From a virus: DNA of 37,635 nt. The notes beneath the pieces were generated by a model. The model searched no databases. It saw only the letters and a list, made by a program, of their open reading frames with translations, and was not told the DNA's origin. The position numbers and the translations under genes were made by a program. Positions 14,531 through 33,682 of the stretch are shown here, piece after piece. Each line of letters starts with the position of its first letter. Position 1 is the stretch's first letter. The stretch covers positions 1 to 37,635 of IMG/VR virus record IMGVR_UViG_3300023179_000261; one strand, written 5' to 3'.

Positions 14531-14814
14531 ACCAATATTTTTTAAAATTCAGCACAGAGCAAGTAGCTCTTGATGCGCTAACTCAGGCCGGATTAGTTAT
14601 TGAAGGCGAGGTTGACACTTCCAACCCTTTAATTAGTTTGGATATAATCGGCGGACTTGTTGAGCCTGCTGTTTACAGCGATGATGGCGTGATGCTTGTT
14701 GAGCCACAGCCATTAGAAGGCTTCCACGTTAATGTACTTTGCGAGTCATTACCCGCCAGCCTTGATGATTATATAGTGATTCCACAACGCCCTATACGGG
14801 TATTCGCGGTTTAA
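14527..14814 (+). CDS. Small protein coupled to the adhesin, possible chaperone or fibre accessory
   Basis: A 95-residue acidic protein that begins at the ATG overlapping the adhesin stop (ATGA, 14527-14530); an in-frame extension upstream to 14458 would lie inside the adhesin gene and is not needed. It opens MNQYFLKFSTEQVALDALTQ and ends VIPQRPIRVFAV. No motif identifies it. Tail adhesin genes are often followed by a small assembly chaperone, which would fit place and size. Confidence 0.5.
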   Translation: MNQYFLKFSTEQVALDALTQAGLVIEGEVDTSNPLISLDIIGGLVEPAVYSDDGVMLVEPQPLEGFHVNVLCESLPASLDDYIVIPQRPIRVFAV

Positions 14815-14815
14815 A

Positions 14816-14885
14816 AAGGAAGTACAGAAATGAATACATTTAACATTAATAAGGAAGTACAGAAATGAATACATTTAACATTAAT
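14816..14885 (+). repeat. 35-bp perfect tandem duplication covering RBS and start of the lysozyme gene
   Basis: Unit 1 (14816-14850) and unit 2 (14851-14885) are identical. Each has AAGGAAG, an ATG and the first seven codons of the lysozyme. Reading from the first ATG (14830) gives a 12-residue peptide (MNTFNINKEVQK) whose TGA overlaps the real lysozyme ATG at 14865 as ATGA. The duplication has created a small upstream reading frame coupled to the endolysin. Confidence 0.9.
14830..14868 (+). CDS. 12-codon leader peptide upstream of the lysozyme
   Basis: A 12-residue reading frame created by the tandem duplication. It has the same ribosome binding site as the lysozyme and ends at a TGA overlapping the lysozyme start. 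It may have no function as a peptide, but would supply or compete for ribosomes at the endolysin start. Whether it is translated cannot be told from sequence. Confidence 0.4.
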   Translation: MNTFNINKEVQK

Positions 14886-15341
14886 CAGGCCGGATTGGAT
14901 TTAATAAAGAAGTTTGAGGGGTTCGAGCCAAAGAAATATGAATGCCCTGCGGGGAAGGCCACTATTGGTTATGGTCATGTGATCAAGAAAGGTGAGTCCT
15001 TTACGAAGTTAACGGAAAAAGCGGCAGAGGGGCTTTTAGCGGAGGATTTGAGGTATTTCGAGGACAAAGTGAGAGAATTAATCACAGTTCCCTTAAGTGA
15101 AAATCAATTTAGCGCACTGGTTTCTTTTACGTTCAATGTAGGTGAGGAGAATTTAAAAAACTCTACACTGAGAAGGATGCTTAATGGGGGCGATTACGAT
15201 GGCGCAAGCGAGCAGTTTATGCGGTGGGTAAAAGCTCGTAATGCTGAAGGCGTGATGATAACCCTAGAAGGGTTGAAAAATAGAAGGAAGGCAGAAAAAT
15301 TACTTTTTGAATCAAAAGGCGAATATGGTGTGGCGGCATAA
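14865..15341 (+). CDS. Endolysin, glycoside hydrolase 24 lysozyme
   Basis: A 158-residue T4/P21-type lysozyme that cuts the glycan chain of peptidoglycan. The catalytic Glu is E18 (IKKFEGF), followed by YECPAGKATIGYGH. T33 stands at the usual third position, and C27 occupies the place often held by Asp, a variant I recall from other lambdoid endolysins. LSENQFSALVSFTFNVG and LKNRRKAEKLLFE are further family blocks. Length is normal. There is no N-terminal signal or anchor, so export needs a holin. It is followed by the two spanin genes. Confidence 0.93.
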   Translation: MNTFNINQAGLDLIKKFEGFEPKKYECPAGKATIGYGHVIKKGESFTKLTEKAAEGLLAEDLRYFEDKVRELITVPLSENQFSALVSFTFNVGEENLKNSTLRRMLNGGDYDGASEQFMRWVKARNAEGVMITLEGLKNRRKAEKLLFESKGEYGVAA

Positions 15342-15736: not shown

Positions 15737-16003
15737 TTATTTTCTCATTGCATCCTCAAGCAGCTCCACTATTTCTGCATGCCCATATTCTGCTGCCAGC
15801 CATAATACCACATCATCCTCAGCATGAACATCCGCCCCAGCTTCCAGCAACAGCCTTACTATTTCAGTATGCCCATACTTTGCCGCCAACCTTAATGCCG
15901 CATCATCACGGGCATGAATGTTAACACCAGTTTTCAGCAGCCGCTTAACTTCAGCAACATTGCCAGTTCTGGCCGCATTTATTAAATCCGTTTCTTTAGC
16001 CAT
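15737..16003 (-). CDS. Ankyrin-repeat protein Ank1 (N-cap, 1 repeat, C-cap)
   Basis: An 88-residue protein starting at MAKETDLINAARTGN, with AAGGA upstream; an in-frame extension to 16054 is less likely. The parts are an N-cap of 32 residues, one full 30-residue repeat beginning DDAALRLAAKYGHTEIV, and a C-cap ending LLEDAMRK. It is the shortest member of the family. Bases 15881-15988 are identical to 18520-18627 in the large ankyrin gene, so one was copied from the other recently. It lies last in the leftward operon, convergent with the o-spanin gene and 14 bases from it. The partner is unknown; ankyrin repeats bind proteins. Confidence 0.85.
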   Translation of the reverse strand: MAKETDLINAARTGNVAEVKRLLKTGVNIHARDDAALRLAAKYGHTEIVRLLLEAGADVHAEDDVVLWLAAEYGHAEIVELLEDAMRK

Positions 16004-16034
16004 TGGAATATCCTTGTTATTAATAAGTGAGTGA

Positions 16035-16382
16035 CTAATTATTTTGATTATCAAATTTCCCTATAAGTAACTTATAAAGAGCTGCGGGATGATTTAGATG
16101 CACTTCATCGCCATTGATTGTTATGATCGGCTTAACTCCAGATTTGGCGGCGGGCTTCCCTCTGGTCGTTTCATATAACCACCAGCTAATCCACTTATCT
16201 GTATCACACATTTCAAGCTCTAAATGCTTAAGTAGATACTCTGTGATATCATCACCTAAAACCGGAATTGATGTACCATCGATATATGGCTCAATAGCCG
16301 TCTTAAAGTGTTCATCGCGAAGCTTCTCGATTGATAATATCGTTTGAATGCAAGCGCAAAACATTCTGCCGGAAATAGTCAT
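16035..16382 (-). CDS. Hypothetical protein
   Basis: A 115-residue protein with a good ribosome binding site (AGGGGGA). It starts MTISGRMFCACIQTILSIEKL and contains DTDKWISWWLYETTRG and a C-terminal ITINGDEVHLNHPAALYKLL. The WWLYE block and the length recall small phage proteins of unknown role, but I do not recognise the family. It lies between ankyrin genes in the accessory block. Confidence 0.6.
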   Translation of the reverse strand: MTISGRMFCACIQTILSIEKLRDEHFKTAIEPYIDGTSIPVLGDDITEYLLKHLELEMCDTDKWISWWLYETTRGKPAAKSGVKPIITINGDEVHLNHPAALYKLLIGKFDNQNN

Positions 16383-16394
16383 GATTTGTTCCCC

Positions 16395-16751
16395 CTAAAT
16401 GTAAGGAGAACGACAAGTAGGGGTCATAGGCATTTGGGGTTGAAGCCCCCTTAACTTTGGAAGGCCGCGACATACGAACCCGTTAAGCACCTTTGTAATA
16501 AGGCCAGCCTCGGATAATTTATTACATGCCGTTAGGATTTCCACTGGACTATAAGCATCACCAAGTCTTATGGCCATTGCATCGGTTGAGAAAACACAAT
16601 CAGGATTGGAGCTTAAAACTCCCCATACAGCAACCGAGCAATCACGAAGCTCAGGCTCACTTTGCTTTATGTTATTCGCCAGCGAGCGGATGGCCTTCCC
16701 TAGCGAATCATACGCCGCTAGAACGTCATTTATCATTGTGTTATTATCCAT
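16395..16751 (-). CDS. Hypothetical protein, possible winged-helix fold
   Basis: A 118-residue protein whose ribosome binding site (AAGGAG) lies at the end of the upstream DUF3310 gene. Residues about 35-95 (CSVAVWGVLSSNPDCVFSTD, then RLGDAYSPVEILTACNKLSEAGLI) look like a winged helix: a helix, a short turn, a second helix with a KLSEAGLI recognition-type pattern, and a beta hairpin. A DNA-binding role is therefore possible. No named family is recognised. Confidence 0.58.
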   Translation of the reverse strand: MDNNTMINDVLAAYDSLGKAIRSLANNIKQSEPELRDCSVAVWGVLSSNPDCVFSTDAMAIRLGDAYSPVEILTACNKLSEAGLITKVLNGFVCRGLPKLRGLQPQMPMTPTCRSPYI

Positions 16752-16752
16752 T

Positions 16753-17004
16753 TTATTGCTCCTTACTTGACACGTTCACCCCATTGAGAATATTTTCCAG
16801 TCGCTGGATTTCTCGCTGGATGTACCAGCCAGCTTTTTTAAGGTCTATTATCTCCCCTTGGAGGGACTTTGTTTTATAACCCGCTCTCCATATATACTTT
16901 ATAGCATTGCCAGTGTTGAAATTATGATGCTCAGTAATAGTGATACATTCTACACCAGAAGGATGCTTGCAATAATGGGTGGGGTGATTAATGAGGTCGC
17001 TCAT
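16753..17004 (-). CDS. DUF3310 protein (phage SaV-like)
   Basis: An 83-residue protein with the full signature of DUF3310: INHPTHYCKHPSGVECITI, NFNTGNAIKYIWRAG and LKKAGWYIQREIQRLE. This family is widespread in phages, often annotated as nucleotide kinase-like, with no settled function. It starts 4 bases after the ankyrin gene stop (17009) and its end carries the ribosome binding site of the next gene. Confidence 0.9.
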   Translation of the reverse strand: MSDLINHPTHYCKHPSGVECITITEHHNFNTGNAIKYIWRAGYKTKSLQGEIIDLKKAGWYIQREIQRLENILNGVNVSSKEQ

Positions 17005-17008
17005 GCTG

Positions 17009-17407
17009 CTACCAATGCTTTGAGATTAATAGTGGGCCGGTCACTGCCATTTCTTTTCTCATGGCATCCTCAAGCAGCTTTACTACTTCAGTATGCTTAT
17101 AATATGTCGCCCATCTTAATGCTGCATCATCAAGGGCATGAGGGTTGGCTCCAGCTTCCAGCAGTAGCTTCACTATTTCTGCGTGGCCATTATATGCCGC
17201 CACCCTTAATGCGTAGTCATCACTGACATGCAGGTCAGCGCCAGCTTCCAGCAACAGCCTTACTATTTCAGTATGCCCATATGCTGCTGCCCACCTTAAT
17301 GCCCAGTCATTATCGGCATGAACATCCGCGCCTTCCGAAAGCAGTCGCCTTACTTCAGCAACATCACCAACTCTCGTCGCCCATATTAAATCATCTTCTT
17401 TAGCCAT
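17009..17407 (-). CDS. Ankyrin-repeat protein Ank2 (N-cap, 2 repeats, C-cap)
   Basis: A 132-residue protein. After the N-cap (MAKEDDLIWATRVGDVAEVRR) come two 30-residue repeats, starting NDWALRWAAAYGHTEIV and DDYALRVAAYNGHAEIV, and a C-cap ending LLEDAMRKEM. A further 12 residues (VTGPLLISKHW region) are unlike the tails of its paralogues, so the C-terminus may have been changed by insertion or frameshift. Its start overlaps the upstream stop by 8 bases (ATGGCTAA). Confidence 0.88.
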   Translation of the reverse strand: MAKEDDLIWATRVGDVAEVRRLLSEGADVHADNDWALRWAAAYGHTEIVRLLLEAGADLHVSDDYALRVAAYNGHAEIVKLLLEAGANPHALDDAALRWATYYKHTEVVKLLEDAMRKEMAVTGPLLISKHW

Positions 17408-17825
17408 TCGACTCCCCTTTTATCGCTATTTCCACGCGCTCGCCATTGTAATTCGCGTGAGTAATTTCATCCACGGGGTCATTCAGTACGCAGCAATTCT
17501 CATGCACTTTTTCCACAAAAGTAATAAGCTCTCCCTCATAATTAATTGAGTCCGCCTCTTGAAAGAGCTTGCCCTTTACATATAGCCCCATTGCTGCGTA
17601 GGCGTACCATAGTCGTTCATCGCGCTTAATGTTTGGTTTCTTATGTACCGCTTTAAGTGCTGTACCAATGCGGCGGTAATCTTCATTATAAAGAGTGTAA
17701 CCATGCTCGGTAGGAAACCTTCGCACCAGGCACTGAGGCATGCCGCCATCAATCCAATCTTTTGGCCTATTATTCCAGATAACCGTATGTGGTGCGCCAT
17801 TTACCGTTTCAACTGTTACCAGCAT
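17400..17825 (-). CDS. Hypothetical protein between ankyrin genes
   Basis: A 141-residue protein. The start at ATG 17825 is favoured over a GTG one codon earlier, because AAGGAGG lies five to six bases upstream. The sequence (TVETVNGAPHTVIWNNRPKD, then QCLVRRFPTEHGYTLYNEDY and AMGLYVKGKLFQEADSI) has no motif I recognise. It separates ankyrin genes Ank2 and Ank3 and is coupled to both by overlaps, so it is expressed with them. Confidence 0.62.
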   Translation of the reverse strand: MLVTVETVNGAPHTVIWNNRPKDWIDGGMPQCLVRRFPTEHGYTLYNEDYRRIGTALKAVHKKPNIKRDERLWYAYAAMGLYVKGKLFQEADSINYEGELITFVEKVHENCCVLNDPVDEITHANYNGERVEIAIKGESNG

Positions 17826-18642
17826 CACTACCTCCTTGTTTTCTCATGGCATCCTCAAGCAGCTTAACTATTTTAGTACGCCTAGAATGTTTCGCCCACC
17901 TTAATGCCCAGTCCTCAAGGGCATGAGGGTTAGCACCAGCTTCCAGCAACAGCCTTACTATTTCTGTGCGGCCATTATATGCCGCCCACCTTAATGCGTA
18001 GTCATCTTCAGCATGAACATCAACACCAGCTTCCAGCAATAGCCTCACTACTTCTGTGTGGCCATTATATGCCGCCACCCTTAACGCCTCATCATCACGG
18101 GCATGAACATTAACCCCAGCTTCCAGCAATAGCCTCACTACTTCTGTGTGGCCATTATATGCCGCCACCCTTAACGCCTTATCATCACGGGCATGAACAT
18201 TAACCCCAGCTTCCAGCAATAGCCTCACTACTTCTGTGTGGCCATTTTCTGCCGCCCACCTTAATGCGTAGTCATCAAGGGCATGAGCGTTAGCCCCAGC
18301 ATCCAGCAATACCCTTACTATTTCTGTGTGGCCATTTATCGCCGCCCATCTTAATGTCAGGTCACCAAAGGCATGAACATCCGCCCCAGCTTCCAGTAGT
18401 AGTTTCACTACTTCAGTATGACCATATTGTGCCGCCCAACTTAATGCCGCATCATCACGGGCATGAACATCAGCCCCAGCTTCCAGCAACAGCCTTACTA
18501 CTTCAGTATGCCCATATTGTGCCGCCAACCTTAATGCCGCATCATCACGGGCATGAATGTTAACACCAGTTTTCAGCAGCCGCTTAACTTCAGCAACATT
18601 GCCAGTTCTGGCCGCATTTATTAAATCATCTTCTTTACTCAT
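17809..18642 (-). CDS. Ankyrin-repeat protein Ank3 (N-cap, 7 repeats, C-cap)
   Basis: A 277-residue protein, the largest of the family. An N-cap (MSKEDDLINAARTGN) is followed by seven 30-residue repeats and a C-cap (EDWALRWAKHSRRTKIV, then LLEDAMRKQGG). In each repeat the usual GxTPLH is replaced by DDxALRxAA, followed by a conserved GHTE and LLLEAG. Repeats 5 and 6 are nearly identical in DNA (18121-18210 and 18031-18120, one difference in 90 bases, which changes Lys to Glu). No signal peptide or membrane segment is present. The likely role is binding to a host protein; target unknown. Confidence 0.93.
   Translation of the reverse strand: MSKEDDLINAARTGNVAEVKRLLKTGVNIHARDDAALRLAAQYGHTEVVRLLLEAGADVHARDDAALSWAAQYGHTEVVKLLLEAGADVHAFGDLTLRWAAINGHTEIVRVLLDAGANAHALDDYALRWAAENGHTEVVRLLLEAGVNVHARDDKALRVAAYNGHTEVVRLLLEAGVNVHARDDEALRVAAYNGHTEVVRLLLEAGVDVHAEDDYALRWAAYNGRTEIVRLLLEAGANPHALEDWALRWAKHSRRTKIVKLLEDAMRKQGGSDAGNS
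18031..18210. repeat. 90-bp tandem repeat inside Ank3 gene
   Basis: 18031-18120 and 18121-18210 are identical except at 18090 (c) and 18180 (t). The first 36 bases of the unit continue identically into a third copy at 18211-18246 before diverging. The period of 90 equals one 30-residue ankyrin repeat, which indicates recent unequal recombination or slippage. Confidence 0.92.
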
Positions 18643-19192
18643 CGGACTCCCCTTGTTTATTCATTGCGTCCTCAAGCAGCCTTACAACTTCTGTATGCCC
18701 ATATTGTGCCGCCCACCTTAATGCCCAGTCCTCAAGGGCATGAGGGTTAGCACCAGCTTCCAGCAACAGCCTTACTATTTCTGTATGACCATTTATCGCC
18801 GCCCACCTTAATGCGTAGTCATCACGAGCATGAACATCCGCCCCAGCTTCCAGTAGTAGTTTCACTACTTCAGTATGACCATATTGTGCCGCCCAACTTA
18901 ATGCCGCATCATCACGGGCATGAACGTTAGCCCCAGCTTCCAGCAACAGCCTTACTATTTCAGTATGCCCCTTTTCTGCCGCCCACCTTAATGCGTAGTC
19001 ACCAACAAGGGCGTGGACATCAGCCCCAGCTTCCAGCAACAGCCTTACTACTTCAGTATGCCCATATTGTGCCGCCAACCTTAATGCCGCATCATTATCG
19101 GCATGAACATCAGCACCTTCCGATAGCAGTCTCTTCACTTCAGTAACATCGCCAGCTTTTGCCGCTGTTATTAATTCTCGCTCTTTACTCAT
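18635..19192 (-). CDS. Ankyrin-repeat protein Ank4 (N-cap, 4 repeats, C-cap)
   Basis: A 185-residue protein starting MSKERELITAAKAGD; an extension to 19225 would lie in the upstream gene. It has four repeats, the first one residue longer (VHALV before GDYALRWAA), and a C-cap ending LLEDAMNKQGESDE. Start and stop both sit in 8-base ATGAGTAA overlaps with neighbouring ankyrin genes. Stretches of DNA are shared with Ank3, for example around 18841-18920 and 18383-18460. Confidence 0.9.
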   Translation of the reverse strand: MSKERELITAAKAGDVTEVKRLLSEGADVHADNDAALRLAAQYGHTEVVRLLLEAGADVHALVGDYALRWAAEKGHTEIVRLLLEAGANVHARDDAALSWAAQYGHTEVVKLLLEAGADVHARDDYALRWAAINGHTEIVRLLLEAGANPHALEDWALRWAAQYGHTEVVRLLEDAMNKQGESDE

Positions 19193-19553
19193 TAGGCTCC
19201 CCTTGTTTTGCCATTGCCGGTTCAAGTAGCTTCACTATGCGCCTATATTCCTTCGCCCACCTTAATACTAGGCAATTACGGGCATAAGGGTCGGCTCCAG
19301 CCTCCAGTAGTAGTTTTATTACTTCTATGCGGCCATTTAATATCGCCCATATTAATGCGTAGTCATCAAGGGCATGAACGTTAGCCCCAGCATTCAGCAG
19401 TAGCTTCACTATTTTAGTATGCCCATATTCTGCCGCCCGTCGAAGTGCCTCATCATCATAAGCATGAATATTCGCCCCAGCATTCAGCAGTAGCTTTACT
19501 TTGGTGACATCGCCAGCTCTTACCGCCGTTATTAGTTTTTGCTCCTTACTCAT
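19185..19553 (-). CDS. Ankyrin-repeat protein Ank5 (N-cap, 2 repeats, C-cap), first gene of the block
   Basis: A 122-residue protein, promoter-proximal in the ankyrin block, with AGGAG just upstream. The N-cap is MSKEQKLITAVRAGDVTKVK. It has two repeats (DDEALRRAAEYGHTKIV and DDYALIWAILNGRIEVI) and a shortened C-cap (LRWAKEYRRIVKLLEPAM). It is the most diverged member; the last unit has lost about three residues between YRR and IVKLL. It couples to Ank4 through ATGAGTAA. Confidence 0.87.
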   Translation of the reverse strand: MSKEQKLITAVRAGDVTKVKLLLNAGANIHAYDDEALRRAAEYGHTKIVKLLLNAGANVHALDDYALIWAILNGRIEVIKLLLEAGADPYARNCLVLRWAKEYRRIVKLLEPAMAKQGEPNE

Positions 19554-19568
19554 TCGACTCCTTTTGTT

Positions 19569-19589
19569 TTATATTAAAAAATAATATAA
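19569..19589. promoter_or_regulatory. Palindrome over leftward -10 box, candidate operator
   Basis: TTATATTA and TAATATAA, 8-base arms with five A between, perfect inverted repeat. A related 8-base palindrome, TAATATTA (19646-19653), lies over the -10 box of the opposite promoter. Binding of the YdaS/Cro-like protein to both would give a switch; AT-rich chance symmetry is the alternative. Confidence 0.4.
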
Positions 19590-19611
19590 ACCAGAACTCG
19601 GAGCAAGTAAA
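19583..19611 (-). promoter_or_regulatory. Leftward promoter of the ankyrin operon
   Basis: On the minus strand, TTTACT (19611-19606), a 17-base spacer, then TATATT (19588-19583). It stands back-to-back with the rightward promoter of the regulator gene, with nine bases between the two -35 boxes. The -10 box lies in the palindrome 19569-19589. Confidence 0.45.
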
Positions 19612-19620
19612 GGAAATAAA

Positions 19621-19649
19621 TTGCAATCTTTTCTTTATTACTATATAAT
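19621..19649 (+). promoter_or_regulatory. Strong sigma70-type promoter of the regulator gene
   Basis: TTGCAA (19621-19626), 17-base spacer, TATAAT (19644-19649), consensus -10 and near-consensus -35. AAGGA (19663-19667) and the GTG start at 19674 follow. Confidence 0.7.
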
Positions 19650-19673
19650 ATTAAAATAACTGAAGGATTAGAA

Positions 19674-19970
19674 GTGATAGATATTATAGGTGAATTCGTA
19701 AAAAAGGCTGGTGGAACGGCTCCACTCCAAGTGATGTTACAAAAAGAGTCTGGGGCTGAGATAGCGCAGCAATCTATTTGGAACTGGAGGAAGTACGGAA
19801 GAGTCCCGTCAAAATACCTGTCTGCTTTTTGGCAAATAAGTCAGAAGTACGATATGGGATATAGTCTTGAGCAATTAATGGCTGCGCGGTGGTCAAAAGC
19901 CGCAGAGACGAAAACAGCCATATCCGTAGCTTTAATCCAAAAATTGGCCGTAGGGGAGAGTAAATCCTAA
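19674..19970 (+). CDS. YdaS/Cro-like helix-turn-helix regulator
   Basis: A 98-residue protein from a GTG start with AAGGA upstream. The opening IIGEFVKKAGGTAPLQVML followed by AQQSIWNWRKYGRVPSKYL is the pattern of YdaS/Cro-type phage regulators, with a small helix-turn-helix whose recognition helix lies near residues 32-40. It is the only rightward gene within the leftward arm, divergent from the ankyrin operon and sharing its control region. Its last 39 bases overlap the 3' end of the SF3 helicase gene in convergent orientation. Probable repressor of the ankyrin operon and of itself. Confidence 0.72.
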   Translation: MIDIIGEFVKKAGGTAPLQVMLQKESGAEIAQQSIWNWRKYGRVPSKYLSAFWQISQKYDMGYSLEQLMAARWSKAAETKTAISVALIQKLAVGESKS

Positions 19971-21308
19971 AAGGCATTTTCTAGACCTTCTCACGCCGTC
20001 GGAATCTCTCAATATCTTGTCTTTCACCATATAAGGCTTTTCCGATGTAGATGCTCTTTTTAATAGCTTTAAGAAGTCCATTCTAGTTAGGTTCTTACCG
20101 TTACTAAACTTTAGAAAGAGTTCTTGTATTGAATTAATGCTAACATAGTCAAATTCATTGCCTGTATGCACCAAGCATTCATCTATAAACTGCTTCGCAA
20201 GATTATTGCCGGTCATTAATTCATCGACTAATTCATCATACCCCGGAATAATAGGAAACTTGCCTCCTAAATGCGTTAACTCACGCGCCCCCTGTATCGC
20301 CCAGCATAATATCCCGCTCATTTCGTTAAGAAGTAGTTTTTGTAAATCGGGATTCTGTTGATTTTTTGGGATGCATCTCATCATTTGTAGAATGCAAAAT
20401 CTATTGATAGTTGCCCTAGTGTTATCTTGGATGATAGGGAATTCATTCGCGGCAAAAGCATGTTTAGTCTTAAAGACATAACTCATGGTATTAGCATACA
20501 TCCTACGACAAGCTAGAGGCTCTCCAGTGCCCACCATGGTTTTAAATGCATCTTCAGACAGAGTAACTCCATATTTTAACTCTGTCACAGTGTTTAGCTT
20601 CTTTCCTATAAGTTGAGATCTAGAAAGCTCATCATCCATTTTATGTACCGGTAGATTCCCACAAAATTCCTCCCCAACTAATGCACGAAGAACGGATATA
20701 ATTACTGATTTTCCGCAATCCGTATCCCCGTAGAGGTATAAAGCGGTTTTGTATTTATGATGAGGGAGTAAGATATAGCCAGCGAAAAGTTGTAAGCATT
20801 TTCTTTTCTCTTTCTCGTCACCGAACCAATCATTTAAACACTTTTCCCAAATTGGACACTCCGCTAATCCATCCCATGTATGTGGAATGATGTTCTCTAA
20901 AAAGTCGCTAACCTTATGATTCCGTAGCTGGCAGGTGTTTATATTGAGGACTCCATTGCGGAAAGGTATTTCTGACTCCGCTATCCTCTGCCAAGTATCC
21001 CTTCTTTCATTGTAAGTGGTCGCCTTTAAGCAGGAAATAAATTCTCTAGCCCTTGCCGATGTATAATGATCTCCATCGGTTCTAGCAAAGATAGACTCAT
21101 AAAACGCCGAAGATTTTACTTCCCAGTAAGTTCCATTATACGAATAAAGGCTTCCCCCAGAATCCGAAAGGGTGGGGTACGACTTAAGAAAACTTCTTAC
21201 CATATTAGGTATCTTTTCTTTTCCGTCTGTAGCCTCTGTCCCAAATCCGCGAGCCGGAGGCGAGAATTTACTTATTCTCTCATATTCTTCAATTATGCCG
21301 CGTTGCAT
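19932..21308 (-). CDS. SF3 helicase, phage/plasmid D5-like primase-helicase C-terminal type
   Basis: A 458-residue protein. The ATPase core has Walker A YLYGDTDCGKS (K200), a hydrophobic Walker B ending in Glu (LNTVTEL, about 238-244), motif C with HAFAANEFP (N288), and the arginine finger R303 in TRATINRF. Upstream, SEIPFRNGVLNINT and the WDGLAECPIWEKCLNDWF block are the usual D5_N region of the P4/D5 family. It would unwind DNA at replication forks as a hexamer. The primase gene overlaps its start by 20 bases, so the two are a split primase-helicase. Confidence 0.9.
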   Translation of the reverse strand: MQRGIIEEYERISKFSPPARGFGTEATDGKEKIPNMVRSFLKSYPTLSDSGGSLYSYNGTYWEVKSSAFYESIFARTDGDHYTSARAREFISCLKATTYNERRDTWQRIAESEIPFRNGVLNINTCQLRNHKVSDFLENIIPHTWDGLAECPIWEKCLNDWFGDEKEKRKCLQLFAGYILLPHHKYKTALYLYGDTDCGKSVIISVLRALVGEEFCGNLPVHKMDDELSRSQLIGKKLNTVTELKYGVTLSEDAFKTMVGTGEPLACRRMYANTMSYVFKTKHAFAANEFPIIQDNTRATINRFCILQMMRCIPKNQQNPDLQKLLLNEMSGILCWAIQGARELTHLGGKFPIIPGYDELVDELMTGNNLAKQFIDECLVHTGNEFDYVSINSIQELFLKFSNGKNLTRMDFLKLLKRASTSEKPYMVKDKILRDSDGVRRSRKCLLGFTLPYGQFLD

Positions 21309-22245
21309 ATTTCCCCCTCAAATCATCGTTGAAATCATTCCTATCGGGATATATTATCCTCGACCTCAAACCCCTTGCGATAAAAGAATCCTTGGCCTTT
21401 TCAGCATAGATTCTTCCCGCATCATCATTGTCACCAATCACAATTACTGTATGCACATTATTAGGCACGATAATAGAAGCAATATTACCACCAGAAATTG
21501 CCGACCATGTTGGTAATTTCAGTAAGGTCATTGCGGAGATAGCGGTTTCTATCCCCTCAGCTACCCCCAAGACCTCATTCGGCTGGCCTAACTTTACCGA
21601 GTTCCCCTTTATCGAGCCTAGCGCCATCTTACATGGGGTAATATTGGCTTTAGCTCCATCCTTTAAATAAATGCGATGTATACCCTCGACCTCCCCTGAC
21701 TCCGTCGTTACCGCCGCGACCAAGCAAGTAAAGAATCCGCCTGAAATGTGCTTCAACCGCCCCTCTCTTAGACAATCATAATCCCAATTAAGATTTCGTG
21801 ATTTTAAGTATCTTGCTGGCTCGGATGAATCCCTTAAAGGCTTGCATTTTTCCCAAATAGCCTTAACAATCTCTTTGTTTCTTTTCTTGGTGATAGCTGG
21901 TCTGGCCGCCGCTATCATCGAAGGAGATTTCTCATCTTTTGGATATTTACTTAAATAGCTCTCCACCCACTCTTTGCCCCTTACAGGGTCATCTACTCCA
22001 TATTGAATATATGAAATTAACTTAAAAATCCCCCCCTTGCATTCTGGGTTAGCGAAATCTATAAAAGTCCCCTTACTGATACTTATTGCAAGGCTTCCGC
22101 CTTTGTCCCCGTTAAGATTCCCTATCATTAAGTTATCGCCAATTACCACCCCATTAGGTAATGCGGAGCGGAGATATCTTTCCAGTTTTGGCCTCATAGA
22201 TGTGGCCAAATCTTCCCACGAATTTCTGTATTGCTGATTCGACAT
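21289..22245 (-). CDS. TOPRIM-domain DNA primase
   Basis: A 318-residue protein. The TOPRIM motifs are visible: VAEGIETA (E230) with a following beta strand, and VIVIGDNDDAGR (D272, D274). The N-terminal half contains CKGGIFKLISY and RYLKSRNLNW, typical of phage and plasmid primases of the DUF7146/TOPRIM type. A zinc ribbon is not obvious. It would make RNA primers for the SF3 helicase encoded next. Its first 30 codons overlap the end of the VRR-NUC gene in another frame. Confidence 0.88.
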   Translation of the reverse strand: MSNQQYRNSWEDLATSMRPKLERYLRSALPNGVVIGDNLMIGNLNGDKGGSLAISISKGTFIDFANPECKGGIFKLISYIQYGVDDPVRGKEWVESYLSKYPKDEKSPSMIAAARPAITKKRNKEIVKAIWEKCKPLRDSSEPARYLKSRNLNWDYDCLREGRLKHISGGFFTCLVAAVTTESGEVEGIHRIYLKDGAKANITPCKMALGSIKGNSVKLGQPNEVLGVAEGIETAISAMTLLKLPTWSAISGGNIASIIVPNNVHTVIVIGDNDDAGRIYAEKAKDSFIARGLRSRIIYPDRNDFNDDLRGKYATRHN

Positions 22246-22537
22246 CTTCCAACCCCCTCGCTAAAATATAGATTCCACCAAATTTACTAACAACATTCTC
22301 GAATATTTGCTGAGCCTCCCTCTGCTTGTCTTTGCCCACTTTTGCTTCTATTTCGAGCCTCACGCCCATGCCGCCCAGATTTAGAATCCCACTACAATCC
22401 GCCTGTCCTTTCTTGCCCATTCGGCCTATCGGTCGGCCATCCTTAGAATAAGCGAAGCCTACAGGATTTAACCACAGCCTAACATCCCCCTTAGAGTAAG
22501 TAGCTAAAATCGCGTTGCATAACTCAGTATGAGTCAT
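22154..22537 (-). CDS. VRR-NUC domain nuclease
   Basis: A 127-residue protein. Motifs: NPVGFAYSKDGRPIGRMGKK, then GQADCSGIL (D47), LEIEAKVGKDKQ (E64, K66, Q72) and GGIYILARGLEDV. This is the PD-(D/E)XK core of small phage VRR-NUC proteins, which cut branched or junction DNA, probably Holliday-type structures made by RecT/YqaJ recombination. Its start overlaps the stop of the helicase gene (ATGA). Full-length for the stand-alone family. Confidence 0.87.
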   Translation of the reverse strand: MTHTELCNAILATYSKGDVRLWLNPVGFAYSKDGRPIGRMGKKGQADCSGILNLGGMGVRLEIEAKVGKDKQREAQQIFENVVSKFGGIYILARGLEDVESAIQKFVGRFGHIYEAKTGKISPLRIT

Positions 22538-23961
22538 CTCATCCCCTTTCTCTGTCTTGATTCCATTATATGCTTAACCCATCCAGCCTTATAGCCTTTT
22601 AGCGCGGCTAATTCCTCTAATTGCGCTCGTGTCTTGGCCTTTTTTATTTCCTCTCTTACGCCGCTAACTTTTTTTATAGGCTCCGATTCGGCTAAACTAA
22701 GGTCTATTTCTTGTAGGTGAGCGGCTTTTTCCACCACAATCGCCGACCTAGTGGATGCAAGTGGGCTCCCGCATTCTGCGCATACTAGCGCATTGACTTC
22801 ATTCGAGGCGTAGCAATTAGAGCAACTCACAAAGGTTTTCGCCGCTTTCTCCTTTTTAGATTTTTTCTTTAGACCCTTTTCTAAGGTAAAATCGCCTTCG
22901 TCGAGAAATGAACCATGCTCCGCCATTAAGTTCGCATTATCTATAATGACGCAGTCAAGTTTGCCCTCCGCCTTCCGTAGCCCCCTCCCAGCTTCTTGAA
23001 CGTACTTATTTTTCGATAGGGTCGGCCCCGCTAAAACCACGCAAGATATCTCTGGGATATCCATTCCCTCAACAAACAGGGCGCAGTTTGTGATTCCGTC
23101 GATTTCATGCCTTTGGAGCCTACCTAAGATATCTTTGCGATAACCTTTGTCTATCTTATCTGATTCAGCATCTAAGTGAATAAATTTATAGCCTGCATCA
23201 TTAAATCGCTGGGCAAGGTTCCGACTGTGCTTAACCGAACCAGCAAAAACAATAGTTCTTCTGCCCTCAGCGATTCTAACCCAGCTATCTACTACATTAC
23301 CCAAGATCTCGGTTTTGTTTACTATACCATCTAGCTCCCCCTCCGAATAATCCACCCTGTTCCTTGTAACATTAGACAGATTTAATAATGTTGGCGTGAA
23401 TATTCGAGGACGGGCTAAGATTCCTTTGTTAATCAACTCCTTGGTCGTCGTAGTCCTTACCATGCAATCAAAAATATCCCCCAACCCCCCGCCGTCTGCG
23501 CGGTAAGGTGTCGCTGTGACTCCTAGTACTTTCGCCTTAGGGCTTCGTTCAAGAAACTGTAAGTAAGAGCTAGCACGGGCTCTATGGGCTTCGTCTATAA
23601 CTATAAAGTCAGCCCAATTATCCCAATAAGGTCGGTTCGCTAGAGTTGCTATAGATGCAACCTGTGTTTGGAGCAGTGAGTTTTTTCTACTATCATTGGA
23701 CATAATAACGCCATGCTCAACCCCATACAGATTAAGCCTCTCACTTGCTTGATTTATTAGCTCTTTTCTATGGGCGAGAACTATTGTTCTCTTCCCCTTC
23801 GCCTCCGCAGAATGAATTAAGTCGCAAAATATCGTCGTTTTCCCCGCGCCAGTAGGGGCGACTAAGAGTGCTCTTCTTTTTCCTTCTCGATAGCATCCTC
23901 TTAGTAACTCCTTTGCCTCGCTCTGGTGCTCCCATAACTCGAATGAGCCAACCTTAGGCAC
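22534..23961 (-). CDS. SF2 DEAH helicase, RAD25/XPB-like
   Basis: A 475-residue protein starting at GTG. Motif I is APTGAGKT (K41), motif II DEAH (123-126), motif III TATP (149-152), motif VI QEAGRGLRK (322-330). C-terminal residues hold a zinc ribbon with C380, C383, C394 and C397. Architecture and length match phage RAD25-like helicases. It probably remodels forks or recombination intermediates together with RecT and the VRR-NUC nuclease. The ribosome binding site is weak; translation may depend on the RecT gene stopping two bases upstream. Confidence 0.92.
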   Translation of the reverse strand: MPKVGSFELWEHQSEAKELLRGCYREGKRRALLVAPTGAGKTTIFCDLIHSAEAKGKRTIVLAHRKELINQASERLNLYGVEHGVIMSNDSRKNSLLQTQVASIATLANRPYWDNWADFIVIDEAHRARASSYLQFLERSPKAKVLGVTATPYRADGGGLGDIFDCMVRTTTTKELINKGILARPRIFTPTLLNLSNVTRNRVDYSEGELDGIVNKTEILGNVVDSWVRIAEGRRTIVFAGSVKHSRNLAQRFNDAGYKFIHLDAESDKIDKGYRKDILGRLQRHEIDGITNCALFVEGMDIPEISCVVLAGPTLSKNKYVQEAGRGLRKAEGKLDCVIIDNANLMAEHGSFLDEGDFTLEKGLKKKSKKEKAAKTFVSCSNCYASNEVNALVCAECGSPLASTRSAIVVEKAAHLQEIDLSLAESEPIKKVSGVREEIKKAKTRAQLEELAALKGYKAGWVKHIMESRQRKGMR

Positions 23962-23963
23962 GA

Positions 23964-24887
23964 CTATTCATCGCCTGTAATTAATGCATCTAAGGACGCT
24001 TTGAACTTACTGTTCCGTCCTGCGAAAATAAGTAAATTAGTTCTATTTAGGTAATAAAGAGCGGATCTATCCTCTCTCGGTAAATCTTTAAGGGAGCGAT
24101 AAATCATCTCGCAGCCAGATCTTAATGGTCGTTTTATCACAGTCGTTCCATCTCCGTCAAAAAACTCATAGAGAGGCTCGGCTGGAGTATCCGCCTCCGC
24201 CTTTAATATCTCTGTGATTTTTTTTGAACTAAATTGAGTAGGCGCTTCAGTGGGTGGAGTTATGTCAGTCATTTGAGGGTGAGGAGATGAGATACCTTCC
24301 GCCTCTTCTTTGGTGATTTCCCCACCTAGCTCCTCGGGGAAGCCTTTCCTTAAAGCCGATGCTTCTGCTACTTTAGCAATCTGTCCATAAGGTCTATCTG
24401 CCCACATGGAATTTGGCGCTCCACTCCTATTTTTTTTAGCTTCTTCAAGCCAAAACACCTTAGATGTATATTCACATTTAATGGAGCCAAGTAATTTATA
24501 CACAGTAACTTTGCACCACTTTGGGAAAGCGACTGTTTTTACAGATTTCTGCTTGGTTTTCTGGTCATATACTGGGAAATCCATAATTATTTCCTCCCCG
24601 TACTCTGGCTCTGAAGAACCAGCATACGCCCCAGTTCTGGATGCGGTGCTACGCGCTTCTGCTATCCCCGGCCAGATACCTTCAACCTCTTTCCCTAATG
24701 AATTATTCCAGACCTTCACAATATGAACGTGCTTTTTTAAAACATCTAATCCTCTTTCTTTGCAGTATGCTAAGGCCAAGGCGATTCCCTCATCTGAGGC
24801 CCCAGGAAACACCGCCTCCTTTAATACTCTGTATCTATCGTGCGTAATCCCCGATTCAGCAATAATCGCTGGTAGTTTATTAGTCAT
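23964..24887 (-). CDS. RecT/Bet-family single-strand annealing protein
   Basis: A 307-residue protein. Signature blocks are GIALALAYCKERGLDVLKK, HIVKVWNN, WPGIAEARSTASRTGAYAG and SMWADRPYGQIAKVAEASA, LRKGFPEELGGEITKEEAE, all typical of the Bet/RecT family (in Bet: P-x-W-x-x-x-P-x-x-Q-L-x-K). It anneals single strands during recombination-driven replication. A flexible Pro/Thr-rich C-terminal part (about residues 205-230) is followed by a small conserved domain. It pairs with the YqaJ exonuclease at 27707. Good ribosome binding site (AAGGAG). Confidence 0.92.
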   Translation of the reverse strand: MTNKLPAIIAESGITHDRYRVLKEAVFPGASDEGIALALAYCKERGLDVLKKHVHIVKVWNNSLGKEVEGIWPGIAEARSTASRTGAYAGSSEPEYGEEIIMDFPVYDQKTKQKSVKTVAFPKWCKVTVYKLLGSIKCEYTSKVFWLEEAKKNRSGAPNSMWADRPYGQIAKVAEASALRKGFPEELGGEITKEEAEGISSPHPQMTDITPPTEAPTQFSSKKITEILKAEADTPAEPLYEFFDGDGTTVIKRPLRSGCEMIYRSLKDLPREDRSALYYLNRTNLLIFAGRNSKFKASLDALITGDE

Positions 24888-24913
24888 AGTGGTCGCTCCT
24901 TTGTTTGTTTCGA

Positions 24914-25213
24914 TTATTCGTAATCTCCAATGAGATTTTTCGTTATATTAAGTCGAAGCATCTCCCGCTGTAATGATGCTTTTTTTATCTCTAGCCGCCT
25001 AGCTACAGAGTTTAAATCACCATTATACCGCTCAAGCCATCCCAGAATCAAAAGCCGCCTTATCGCTGCCTTTAATACAGGAAGTTGAGGAATGCCATGC
25101 CCGACCTTTGAATTCACCCATCTTCCCCAATCTGGCTCTGCAAGATGAGCTAGTGCGCCTCTTGATTTGATAGCATCAGCAGACGGTTCTAATATTATAG
25201 AAGATATTAACAT
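24914..25213 (-). CDS. Small Fis-type helix-turn-helix protein
   Basis: A 99-residue protein. Residues about 66-92 (DLNSVARRLEIKKASLQREM, then LRLNI) match the Fis-type helix-turn-helix common in transcription regulators. The N-terminal part (LAHLAEPDWGRWVNSKVG) is found in small phage DNA-binding proteins of unknown target. It sits between RecT and an unknown gene in the leftward arm, so it could be a regulator of the recombination genes. Confidence 0.65.
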   Translation of the reverse strand: MLISSIILEPSADAIKSRGALAHLAEPDWGRWVNSKVGHGIPQLPVLKAAIRRLLILGWLERYNGDLNSVARRLEIKKASLQREMLRLNITKNLIGDYE

Positions 25214-25219
25214 AATTCC

Positions 25220-25522
25220 CTACGAATATAACTTTTCATGTATTTCCGTCACTTCCTCAAGTGATAATCCACGCTCAAACAAATCCGACATGGCCTGTTC
25301 GCGGTATCGAAGGCCGGTCAATTCTTCCTTAGATACATTAAAAACTACTGCATCTATATGCTCGGTTCTTCTGTATGTGAGTTTATCTTCATCCACACAA
25401 ATAAAGGTTGGATTATTACATAATGACTCCAGCCACCCCTCCGCTTGATGAGCAGATGAGAAGTTAATCTTATAGGTTTCGCCGAAGCTAAGTGTTATTT
25501 GCGCGAAAATTTCTTTACTCAT
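25220..25522 (-). CDS. Hypothetical protein coupled to Ank6
   Basis: A 100-residue acidic protein. It begins MSKEIFAQITLSFGETYKIN and continues NPTFICVDEDKLTYRRTEH and SLEEVTEIHEKLYS. The first four residues MSKE equal those of several ankyrin proteins, probably because the coupled start ATGAGTAAAG has been copied with them. No motif is recognised. Confidence 0.6.
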   Translation of the reverse strand: MSKEIFAQITLSFGETYKINFSSAHQAEGWLESLCNNPTFICVDEDKLTYRRTEHIDAVVFNVSKEELTGLRYREQAMSDLFERGLSLEEVTEIHEKLYS

Positions 25523-25800
25523 ATTTTTTCTCCTTGTTTTTTTATTGCGTCCTCAAGCAGCTTTACTACTTCTGTATGCTTATATTTTACCGCCCACCTT
25601 AACGCCTCATCATTACGAGCGTGAGGGTTGGCTTTAGCTTCCAGCAGTAGTTTTACTATTTCAGTGTGGCCATATTCTGCTGCCCACCTTAATGCCGCAT
25701 CATTATCGGCATGAACGTTAGCTCCTTCCGAAAGCAATCGCTTTATTTCGGTGACGTTGCCAGCTCTTACCGCCGTTATTAGTTTTTGCTCCTTACTCAT
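25519..25800 (-). CDS. Ankyrin-repeat protein Ank6 (N-cap, 1 repeat, C-cap), outlying copy
   Basis: A 93-residue protein: N-cap MSKEQKLITAVRAGNVTEIK, one repeat NDAALRWAAEYGHTEIVK, C-cap LRWAVKYKHTEVVKLLEDAI. The first twelve residues are identical to Ank5 (19185-19553), six kilobases away. It is an isolated cassette between an excisionase-like gene and a hypothetical gene, coupled to both by ATGA overlaps. Such a perfect fit into an operon suggests mobile cassette-like duplication. Confidence 0.88.
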   Translation of the reverse strand: MSKEQKLITAVRAGNVTEIKRLLSEGANVHADNDAALRWAAEYGHTEIVKLLLEAKANPHARNDEALRWAVKYKHTEVVKLLEDAIKKQGEKI

Positions 25801-26678: not shown

Positions 26679-27113
26679 TTATCTATCCCTCTCAAAAATG
26701 ACTATCGCCGAAGGAAATGGGGCTGAATTGCTGTGGCCTCCAAATTTTAAACGACCTCTTAGAAATTCAATCTTCCCATGGGGGATTATATAATCATGCC
26801 ACCATGCCGTATCTGTACGCGCTGGAAGTAAACAAACGACTTTCGCGACATGTTGCCCGTTGGTAAAGGTAGCTTCATAAGCCTTTTTTACCCACCTCCC
26901 AATCTCGCGGCCATAAGGTGGATTCATCCAACAAACATTGTCTTTCCAGTCTTGCGTTAGTCCATCTATTTCAGAGGTATAATACCTTGAGCATTTTGCA
27001 TTTTCTGGCGTAGCGCAAACATCAAGTGTAAAGCCATGAACCGCATGGAGCCGATCAAATAAATCCTGTGGTGTTGCCCATAGGTCTGTTTTGCTTGAAA
27101 AATGTACATTCAT
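26679..27113 (-). CDS. DNA N-6-adenine methyltransferase, phage Dam family
   Basis: A 144-residue protein starting MNVHFSSKTDLWATPQD; the upstream in-frame ATG at 27155 would add 14 unrelated residues. FTLDVCATPENAKC and the catalytic WMNPPYG (N64-P-P-Y67) are the phage Dam family marks. It transfers a methyl group from S-adenosylmethionine to adenine, probably to protect phage DNA from host restriction. Length is in the normal range for this short family. Confidence 0.92.
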   Translation of the reverse strand: MNVHFSSKTDLWATPQDLFDRLHAVHGFTLDVCATPENAKCSRYYTSEIDGLTQDWKDNVCWMNPPYGREIGRWVKKAYEATFTNGQHVAKVVCLLPARTDTAWWHDYIIPHGKIEFLRGRLKFGGHSNSAPFPSAIVIFERDR

Positions 27114-27165
27114 AAAATCGCCCCTAGTGGTGCTGGATGTTAAGTGAATAGGCATGGATAACTTA

Positions 27166-27405: not shown

Positions 27406-27710
27406 GCCCCTGCTCTTTTCAGAAGGTTCTCTAATTTAGCGGCTAAGGTTGGCCTTTTTAGGAGGCGTTTTAGTTCTGGCTCCCCCTCGTCGATCAAGAG
27501 GGACAGCGAACCAAGAGTTGTTGCCCCAGTCTCGCTTAACTCTCTTACTTCCTTATTGGTAAGATAGGGGACTAAGTCCGCCCCTATCTCTGTATTTAGG
27601 CCGCATTGAGCAACGGTATTGAATACCAGATCAACCTTTTTTCTTGAGTGCGAGCGGCCATCTAATATTAGTTTAGACGCTGCTCTATCGGGATAAGCTC
27701 CTATTGTCAT
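27402..27710 (-). CDS. Hypothetical protein next to the YqaJ exonuclease
   Basis: A 102-residue protein (AAGGAA upstream). It starts MTIGAYPDRAASKLILDGRS and includes YLTNKEVRELSETGATTLGS and LLKRPTLAAKLENLLKRAG. Small genes next to phage exonucleases are sometimes accessory recombination proteins, but nothing in the sequence shows that. Its ATG overlaps the stop of the exonuclease gene. Confidence 0.58.
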   Translation of the reverse strand: MTIGAYPDRAASKLILDGRSHSRKKVDLVFNTVAQCGLNTEIGADLVPYLTNKEVRELSETGATTLGSLSLLIDEGEPELKRLLKRPTLAAKLENLLKRAGA

Positions 27711-28621
27711 ATTGTTTCCTTGCGCTTGATTGTTAAAGTCCTGTAACTGGTGCCCTGTGTAGTAAAGCCTTTACGATGCACAACTTTACTCTCCATTACA
27801 ATATCAGCAATTTGGGCAGTTCCAGCATCCCCTATTTTTTCAAAAAGATTGGATTTTAAGAAATTTAATTCTTTTTCTTTTTCTCTTAAGTCCGCCCCTA
27901 GTGCTTTTGTTATCTCCTGAGCGGCTATAAAATCCCTTGCCAGATCTTCTACCTCTGGGTTATCTATCAACACCACTCTATCCGCATCCACGGCTTTATT
28001 TGTAGCCAATAATATATCTGTTGTTGCCGGGTGATAATCGGGGTGTGGTGGACTCTTTAAGTTCCAGAACTCTTCTATTTTTCTGATGTGTTTATCTATG
28101 AACTCGTGATTAATGGTTCTGATTATGTGTTTTGGAGTATTTCCACCGACTAGAGCCCCAATAATGCACCAAGTTAACCCCGTCGTGGCCATCTGGTGCT
28201 GTATCTGTATCTCTATGTAATTGGTTGAGTTCCCTTCCTCCCAATTTTTCATATTTTGAAAGAAATCTACGTTTTTAATCTCAAGAATGCCCTTTCCGTA
28301 GAGTAAAAACATCCCTTTAATTTCCTCTGGAGCGTTAGGTGTTACTCCTGTAATATAATAATCGGGAGTTGCGGCCATTCCGTTTATTGATGGACTAACG
28401 GCGAACTCAGCTTTTTCTATTATTAGTCCCAAATCCTCCGCAAACCCCTTAGCAATTACTGACTCTAAGCGGTTGCCCCATACAAGAGGGGTTCCAGTAG
28501 CGGCAACCTCCTTCCCTTCAAATTTCTCTTTGTATAACGAGTAGTAAGATTTATAAGGCGATGCATTCCATAATGCGGCGGCATCACTGCTCCCGATGAA
28601 TTCTTTTCTATTGTGTGTCAT
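27707..28621 (-). CDS. YqaJ-like viral recombinase/exonuclease (lambda exonuclease fold)
   Basis: A 304-residue protein. Motifs in order: FIGSSDAAALWNASPYKSYY, GNRLESVIAKGF (E53), GMAATPDYYI (D87), GILEIKNVDF (E114, K116) and IEIQIQHQM (Q139 to Q143). This is the PD-(D/E)XK set of YqaJ enzymes, which digest one strand at DNA ends and hand the 3' tail to RecT. The C-terminal part is a coiled-coil-like region (ITKALGADLREKEKELNF). It acts with the RecT-like protein at 23964-24887. Confidence 0.92.
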   Translation of the reverse strand: MTHNRKEFIGSSDAAALWNASPYKSYYSLYKEKFEGKEVAATGTPLVWGNRLESVIAKGFAEDLGLIIEKAEFAVSPSINGMAATPDYYITGVTPNAPEEIKGMFLLYGKGILEIKNVDFFQNMKNWEEGNSTNYIEIQIQHQMATTGLTWCIIGALVGGNTPKHIIRTINHEFIDKHIRKIEEFWNLKSPPHPDYHPATTDILLATNKAVDADRVVLIDNPEVEDLARDFIAAQEITKALGADLREKEKELNFLKSNLFEKIGDAGTAQIADIVMESKVVHRKGFTTQGTSYRTLTIKRKETI

Positions 28622-31692: not shown

Positions 31693-31764
31693 CAAAAAAT
31701 TCCGGACATCTCTCAAAAAATTCCGGACATCTCTCAAAAAATTCCGGACATCTCTCAAAAAATT
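31693..31764. repeat. 21-bp iterons (three full copies and a partial one)
   Basis: Perfect copies at 31693-31713, 31714-31734 and 31735-31755, with the first nine bases of a fourth to 31764. The unit is C, six A, then TTCCGGACATCTCT, with the palindrome TCCGGA at its centre. The 21-base period equals two helical turns, so bound proteins would lie on one face of the DNA. A related AT-rich pair with AAATTCRAATTTTT follows to about 31800. Confidence 0.88.
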
Positions 31765-31901
31765 CAAATTTTTGGTGGGAAAATTCGAATTTTTGATGTA
31801 AAAATTCCACTGATTTTGCGATTTTTTTTTGTTTCGAGTTGTATTTATGTGACGGTTTTCGGTGGAATTAAAATATTATATAGCAAAAGAGTGTATAAAA
31901 G

Positions 31902-33025: not shown

Positions 33026-33682
33026 ATGAAAGATATAAGCAAGTATATTGAAAAAAAGTGGGGAAGGGGGGAGCATGGTTGGCCGAGAAGAATCGGGGTT
33101 TTCGGTGACGATGGAAAAACCCCTTATAAGCGAGATGGTTCATTCGGTATATGTGAAGATGAGGAAGCGACGCTGGAAGCTGCTTCACACTACTGTATGT
33201 GTAAGGGTATGCCAGCAGATACCCCGCCCGGTGTCGATCCTTTAGAGGTCTGGAGATTGCGAAAGGTAAATACTCCACCAGAAGAAATCGGAGCGTACTT
33301 CGGATATTCAGAGGAAGAGTGGGAAGTCATAGTCGGAAAATACCCCATGATACAGTTCCTGCAAAACAGGGGAGATGTCGCATACAGAACCATGATCCGC
33401 GAAGGACAGTACCAACTGGGGCGAAACCTCAATGAAGGAATGCTGACGAAACTCGGTGAACACGTCCTTAAACAGAAATTCACAAAGGAAAAGGAGAACT
33501 CCACGAATGTCCAAGTTAACGTGGGAGCAGTATCAGACCTACAGGCACAGATTGGCCGAAGCTATAAGGATATCAGAGCCGCTGCAAGCCAAGGAAATGA
33601 TCCGGACAGCGTGCAGGGAGGACAGATTCTTCTTAATGGAGGAGATACTCCTAGCAACGAAATGGATACAGAATGCGACTGA
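33026..33682 (+). CDS. Putative terminase small subunit
   Basis: A 218-residue protein. No clear ribosome binding site precedes the ATG (33026), which is only 43 bases from the divergent gene, so transcription may be leaderless or the start uncertain. The middle part (ALEVWRLR-like region about 72-110: PPEEIGAYFGYSEEEWEVIV) is a helix-turn-helix typical of TerS DNA-binding domains. It continues RGDVAYRTMIREGQYQLG and NVGAVSDLQAQIG. Role by family: recognises packaging sites and hands DNA to TerL. It overlaps TerL by 176 bases. Confidence 0.68.
   Translation: MKDISKYIEKKWGRGEHGWPRRIGVFGDDGKTPYKRDGSFGICEDEEATLEAASHYCMCKGMPADTPPGVDPLEVWRLRKVNTPPEEIGAYFGYSEEEWEVIVGKYPMIQFLQNRGDVAYRTMIREGQYQLGRNLNEGMLTKLGEHVLKQKFTKEKENSTNVQVNVGAVSDLQAQIGRSYKDIRAAASQGNDPDSVQGGQILLNGGDTPSNEMDTECD

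Follow-up and report, generated by a model that had tools for sequence, protein, structure and literature searches.

The uncultured phage genome held as IMG/VR record IMGVR_UViG_3300023179_000261 (37,635 nucleotides (nts); hereafter the window, meaning the whole stretch of DNA that was analyzed) encodes six small ankyrin-repeat proteins, A1 to A6. By sequence comparison the six genes are a lineage-specific expansion, and we consider the chance to be about even that they serve as cytoplasmic binders of bacterial proteins, a set that is diversifying and works in counter-defence or host takeover. The genes are listed below with their Pfam matches and expectation values (E).

15737-16003, minus strand: A1, 88 amino acids (aa), with N-terminal cap (N-cap), one internal repeat and C-terminal cap (C-cap); Ank, E 1.9e-15
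17009-17407, minus strand: A2, 132 aa, with N-cap, two internal repeats and C-cap plus a divergent tail; Ank, E 6.4e-22
17809-18642, minus strand: A3, 277 aa, with N-cap, seven internal repeats and C-cap; Ank_2, E 1.5e-81
18635-19192, minus strand: A4, 185 aa, with N-cap, four internal repeats and C-cap; Ank, E 3.3e-42
19185-19553, minus strand: A5, 122 aa, with N-cap, two internal repeats and C-cap, leading the A5-A4-A3 tandem; Ank, E 1.8e-17
25519-25800, minus strand: A6, 93 aa, with N-cap, one internal repeat and C-cap, at a separate locus; Ank, E 1.7e-15

All six proteins exceed the curated Pfam cut-offs (Ank, Ank_2 or Ank_4), with Ank_2 E-values ranging from 1e-13 to 1e-81, and chance is therefore excluded as an explanation of their ankyrin identity. 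The original prediction, made from the letters of the window, had placed six leftward open reading frames (ORFs) at these coordinates and described a common plan of N-cap, repeats and C-cap with 1, 2, 7, 4, 2 and 1 repeats. The frames were confirmed on the minus strand with ATG starts, and the same plan and counts were obtained by splitting the proteins. The N-cap is 31 aa long and the internal repeats are all of 30 aa, except for one 31-aa copy in A4 (18635-19192). The genes take about 2.7 kb (7.2%) of the genome, close to the predicted 2.6 kb (roughly 7 percent), and, also as predicted, no membrane segment or signal peptide was seen by hydropathy (maximum 19-residue Kyte-Doolittle mean 0.48-1.41). 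No second domain, enzymatic or other, was detected in these proteins by Pfam and PHROG scans. Strong Shine-Dalgarno sequences of the GGAG/GGGG type are located just upstream of five of the six genes, A1 having only a weak AAGGA.

Structure prediction, which had been proposed as a check on the ankyrin assignment, was performed with AlphaFold2 for two of the six proteins, A3 (the largest) and A6 (one of the smallest). Both models are confident ankyrin solenoids and non-ankyrin folds were not found: A3 has a mean predicted local distance difference test score of 94.2 and 18 helices forming nine helix pairs, and A6 has a mean score of 91.9 and three helix pairs, with no hairpin strands in either. 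The closest solved structures to the A3 model are designed ankyrin repeat proteins (DARPins) and ankyrins (DARPin 6mok, template modelling score 0.89), while the closest viral structure models are ankyrin proteins of the mimivirus lineage. In our reading of an alignment to the ankyrin consensus, the 30-residue repeats, which are three residues short of the canonical 33, would lack those residues in the hairpin loop.

Long exact stretches of DNA are common to several of the paralogs, including 108 nts in A1 and A3, 98, 79 and 75 nts in A3 and A4, and 42 nts in A5 and A6, and exact repeats of 66 and 64 nts are present inside A3. Repeat 2 of A3 and repeat 3 of A4 are only one synonymous base apart, yet their positions within the two genes differ. 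Nearly all of the repeated DNA of the genome lies in the ankyrin genes. The exact shared stretches (up to 108 nts) show recent reshuffling among the paralogs. In a tree of 83 N-cap and repeat segments, the six window genes fall into one clade (support 90/98) and paralogs group by phage (25 changes vs 50.5 in shuffles); the tree alignment has 61 columns only and one long-branched foreign row also lies inside the window clade, which leaves the details of the branching uncertain. The earlier view of a dedicated, still changing family within one small genome is supported.

Variation among the 17 repeats is greatest at positions 11, 1, 4, 8, 28 and 12. In the A3 model, positions 4-12 form helix 1, with positions 4, 8 and 11 on one face and position 1 in the loop. 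The proportion of nonsynonymous differences (pN) at positions 1, 4, 11 and 12 is 0.51, compared with 0.12 elsewhere, and its ratio to the proportion of synonymous differences (pN/pS) is 2.47 (bootstrap 1.6-4.4), compared with 0.29 elsewhere, which is suggestive of diversifying selection on a binding surface. Most of ten other phage arrays share the top variable positions, and pN at these positions is 2.3-5.7 times higher. The variable positions also match what we take, by presumed numbering, to be the randomised surface positions of DARPins. The DARPin paratope consists of defined surface positions of the internal repeats (PMC8683736). This pattern of surface variation is good evidence for a binding function.

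The ankyrin genes sit within tightly packed phage operons. A5, A4 and A3 stand in tandem, the A5/A4 and A4/A3 frames each overlapping by 8 nts, and the tail of one tandem gene (aaacaaggggag...) contains the ribosome-binding site for the gene that follows and continues into the ATG of that gene. A tail carrying the next gene's ribosome site is present in A5, A4 and A6, and a junction design resembling that of A5-A4-A3 was also found in the arrays of two other contigs (L013 and L009). The junctions and the neighbouring genes are as follows.

18635-18662, minus strand: A4-to-A3 junction, in which the A4 tail KQGESDE-stop holds the A3 Shine-Dalgarno sequence and the frames overlap by 8 nts; aacaaggggagtccgATGAGTAAA
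19185-19212, minus strand: A5-to-A4 junction, designed like that of A4/A3, with tail KQGEPNE-stop; aacaaggggagcctaATGAGTAAA
25220-25522, minus strand: non-ankyrin gene of 100 aa after A6, starting with MSKE and having an ankyrin-type junction; gacgcaataaaaaaacaaggagaaaaaatATGAGTAAAGAA
17400-17828, minus strand: gene of 142 aa that lies between A3 and A2 and overlaps each of them; searches of PHROG, Pfam and PADLOC gave no match

PHROG and Pfam searches with the protein of 25220-25522 gave no match, and the gene looks as if it had replaced an ankyrin paralog.

The record represents an uncultured virus of bacteria whose ends overlap exactly (bases 1-126 are identical to 37500-37625); ten stray bases follow this terminal overlap after position 37625, and the genome closes at about 37,499 base pairs (bp). 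From the profile matches of its portal and capsid proteins, the phage is a P22-like podovirus. The genes that bear on its type and on recombination are given below.

35051-37015, plus strand: P22-like portal protein, which marks the phage type; PF16510, E 3.3e-72
701-1813, plus strand: major capsid protein; PF13252, E 2.2e-53
33510-35066, plus strand: large terminase subunit; phrog_38, E 4.7e-51
23964-24887, minus strand: RecT-like single-strand annealing protein; phrog_2449, E 1.2e-57
27707-28621, minus strand: RecE-like exonuclease; phrog_434, E 3.7e-48

The RecE-like exonuclease would be the partner of the RecT-like annealing protein, and the latter is a possible aid to the shuffling of ankyrin repeats. 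A primase, a helicase and an endolysin are also encoded (PHROG scan). The ankyrin genes share a leftward block with the primase, helicase, RecT-like and RecE-like genes, and the rightward virion genes lie apart. No close relatives emerged when the portal and the 971-aa protein were each used in single-sequence scans, and alignment-based scans gave identities of only about 28-33% (portal) and 36-45% (capsid). Neither tRNAs nor known RNA elements were found in the window. A sigma-70 scan yielded 44 sites versus 39.1 in shuffled DNA, and we make no claim of an own promoter for the A5-A1 cluster. A defence-island context was rejected as well, the PADLOC matches on the ankyrin genes being generic repeats and the methyltransferase at 26679-27155 being of the orphan type. 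Elsewhere in the window, the ends of the record cut through a scaffold-like gene running from 37016 across the ends to 521; two non-coding 21-bp tandem arrays (3.5 perfect and 2.4 copies) at 31693-31807, ahead of the packaging genes, are perhaps an origin or control site; and a 35-bp direct repeat (2.3 copies) at 14811-14889 spans the start of the endolysin gene together with its ribosome site.

According to the literature, phages seldom carry ankyrin genes, and where these are discussed it is chiefly for their action on animals (PMC7064744). Among isolated phages, 16 of 50,697 records matched A3, namely 11 of Wolbachia, three of Leptospira (LE1-type) and two of Acinetobacter. Ankyrin relatives are held by 43 searched IMG/VR contigs; 20 of 35 such contigs carry at least two ankyrin genes, five carry at least four, and the maximum is 15 (partial sequence read). 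The original statement that a few phages carry single ankyrin genes was therefore too narrow, and the uniqueness that it implied does not hold, since phage WO, LE1-type Leptospira phages and many metagenomic phages have such genes, often in arrays. It had also raised the case that these genes are a standard part of a well-known phage group. This is not so for the P22-like group: no ankyrin gene was found in two sets of relatives (0/49 and 0/50), which together comprise 89 distinct records, many of them fragments.

Hallmark genes place the ankyrin-bearing contigs in different phage types, with a T4-type capsid protein in three genomes (G007, G010 and G015), terminases in others and a tail sheath in G025. 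No terminase match was obtained in G002, the genome with the largest array, whose phage nature rests on the collection. The best cellular matches include a pond Rickettsiales metagenome-assembled genome (MAG; 57-60% identity), whose proteins have a long N-terminal part unlike the window proteins; a capsid search of 385 genomes of the class of this MAG gave matches of only 27-29%. Plasmid relatives also exist, but their matches are generic and below 60% identity. An alphaproteobacterial MAG contig of 13 kb (L182) holds about 15 tandem ankyrin-like genes with a common C-terminal tail, RLEKLK..RPP.SPFKK, and the ankyrin proteins of L110, L123, L135 and L176 have in common an N-terminal domain (MKFYKYTNLKEVHQGLKYHTGLNIDILPFNP...GGIYF) with no Pfam match. 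Four IMG/VR samples (3300033141, 3300037468, 3300037264 and 3300005573) each contain several different ankyrin-bearing viral contigs, as if certain communities favoured ankyrin-bearing phages.

In T4, proteins bearing a leader of about ten residues are sent into the head and injected, and one of them, IPI, blocks a restriction enzyme (PMC9958956). T4 IPII and IPIII start with MKTYQEFIAE, and at least seven ankyrin genes of the contractile-tailed phage G025 (L228/L229) start with MIKFEQYLNE or a similar sequence, with related starts (MNFKEYLISE and MKNFHYWMISE) in two of its non-ankyrin genes. A pattern for this leader matched ipII and ipIII and nothing else in 45 kb of T4 sequence, as well as at least seven G025 ankyrin ORFs; it was written after the examples had been seen, which makes it a check of consistency and not a blind test. 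There was no match among the window ORFs or in G007, and the idea of a capsid leader on the window ankyrin proteins was rejected. A first pattern, EDSDP, had no match in the fetched contigs, and a loose one was too unspecific. The leaders suggest that the G025 ankyrin proteins may be injected into the bacterium with the DNA, and by analogy they favour the view that at least some members of the wider ankyrin family act in bacteria. A different leader, MKAKFVYEAMGDVLKGKSEEDI, is shared by nine ankyrin genes of G020 (L231/L232), L131 and L141.

Each gene is a self-contained cassette of ribosome site, N-cap, a variable count of 30-aa repeats and C-cap. If the six proteins are cytoplasmic binders, each paralog would grip a different bacterial (or rival-element) protein and block or sequester it, most likely for counter-defence or host takeover during infection. 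Changes in repeat number and surface residues would re-target a binder, and recombination would supply the variants, perhaps helped by the RecE/RecT-like proteins of the phage. Such a model accounts for several observations: export signals are lacking, the genes lie in operons, the family has grown within one lineage, its repeats have been reshuffled and its surface residues vary. The finding of ankyrin genes in none of the 89 P22-like relatives is what is expected of an accessory arms-race gene. The G025 leaders and the dense phage operons lean toward action in the bacterial cytoplasm. Several points weigh against the binder model. A Rickettsiales MAG and giant viruses are also among the sources of the closest relatives, and the evidence from leaders was obtained in a different phage, there being no leader on the window proteins. 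Moreover, a pN/pS above 1 is only suggestive, for two reasons: the variable codons offer few synonymous sites (dividing their pN by the pS elsewhere gives only 1.26), and such surface positions vary in ankyrin repeats whatever their function.

An alternative that we regard as unlikely is that the ankyrins are eukaryote-directed effectors, made by a bacterium in or on a protist or animal and exported or released onto eukaryotic proteins. The Rickettsiales MAG among the best cellular matches and the mimivirus-lineage proteins as the best viral structure matches fit this idea, for which there is precedent: such a role has been proposed in phage WO and demonstrated in sponge ankyphages. However, a signal-like segment is absent by hydropathy, the Rickettsiales proteins differ in their long N-terminal part, a P22-like portal was not found in 13 ankyrin-bearing genomes, and the ankyrin family also occurs in T4-type and other phages, one of them with the leader that suggests injection into bacteria. 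The leftward block shared with primase, helicase, RecT-like and RecE-like genes would also suit internal scaffolds, in which the ankyrins organise the phage's own replication, recombination or head proteins and different copies serve different complexes; this seems decidedly unlikely, as ankyrin genes are absent from P22-like relatives with similar heads, and binding to a conserved partner within the phage is not expected to promote fast-changing surfaces and reshuffled repeats. Largely neutral or selfish proliferation by slippage and recombination, with extra copies lacking a role, is very improbable: exact repeats invite slippage, the repeated DNA of the genome is nearly confined to these genes and recombination proteins are encoded, but in this compact genome all six genes have kept intact frames and conserved caps, purifying selection acts outside the binding positions (pN/pS 0.29), and the pattern recurs in many phages. 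It is highly improbable that the window proteins are virion proteins injected with the DNA and active in the first minutes without expression from the incoming genome, as in the case suggested by the T4-like leader of G025, since they have no leader and are encoded amid the leftward replication genes, at a distance from the virion genes that run rightward.

Beyond the window, we tentatively propose, at rather less than even confidence, that several unrelated phages independently keep DARPin-like repertoires of binders (shuffled tandem cassettes with diversifying surfaces) against bacterial proteins such as defence systems, which in some contractile-tailed phages would be packaged and injected via a leader. 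Phage ankyrin genes, including multiple ones in phage WO, are already known. Within the literature searched, what appears to be new is a podovirus with a tandem family of short-repeat binders that was reshuffled recently, together with the recurrence of such a family in unrelated phages, in one of them in association with a capsid-targeting-like leader. A reshuffling family in a compact podovirus, together with its parallels elsewhere, points to a general phage strategy of evolvable binders inside bacteria. The targets of such small soluble binders should be easy to find by pull-down and could reveal new bacterial defences, and the proteins themselves are natural short-repeat scaffolds for binder engineering.

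Among known systems, phage WO (Wolbachia phages, proposed genus Wovirus) also has several ankyrin genes per genome and gave the best sequence match among isolated phages (36% identity). The defining features of WO are a eukaryotic association module, patatin and recombinase (PMC9203015). None of these (WO-type patatin lytic cassette, eukaryotic association module or recombinase) was found among the 40 window proteins scanned against PHROGs, some small ORFs lying outside the scan; in addition, WO ankyrin genes are longer (e.g. 2.6 kb), whereas the window is a P22-like podovirus. The ANK proteins of sponge ankyphages (Jahn et al. 2019) are likewise phage-encoded ankyrin-repeat proteins and have been reported as secreted immunomodulators (PMC7064744), unlike the window proteins, which have no signal-like segment (by hydropathy only). 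The poxviral ANK/F-box proteins form a viral ankyrin family present in multiple copies, which are believed to target different host proteins (PMC4353913); in contrast, the window proteins have no F-box match and just short tails past the C-cap, and belong to a virus of bacteria. With T4 IPI, IPII and IPIII there is a functional analogy, in that these phage proteins act on the defences of the host as infection begins, but they are not described as ankyrins, and the leader type common to T4 and G025 is absent from the window proteins. The arrays of G002 (L009), G025, G020 and G004 (L013) resemble the window in their tandem small ankyrin genes with mostly 30-aa repeats and in variation at the same repeat positions, and those of L009 and L013 also in overlapping starts and stops; they differ in being separate expansions, with leaders in G025 and G020 and 28-aa repeats in L013. 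Finally, DARPins have the closest solved folds and vary on the same repeat surface as the window proteins, but they are engineered proteins with 33-aa repeats, whereas the window repeats are natural, 30 aa long and have a shorter loop.

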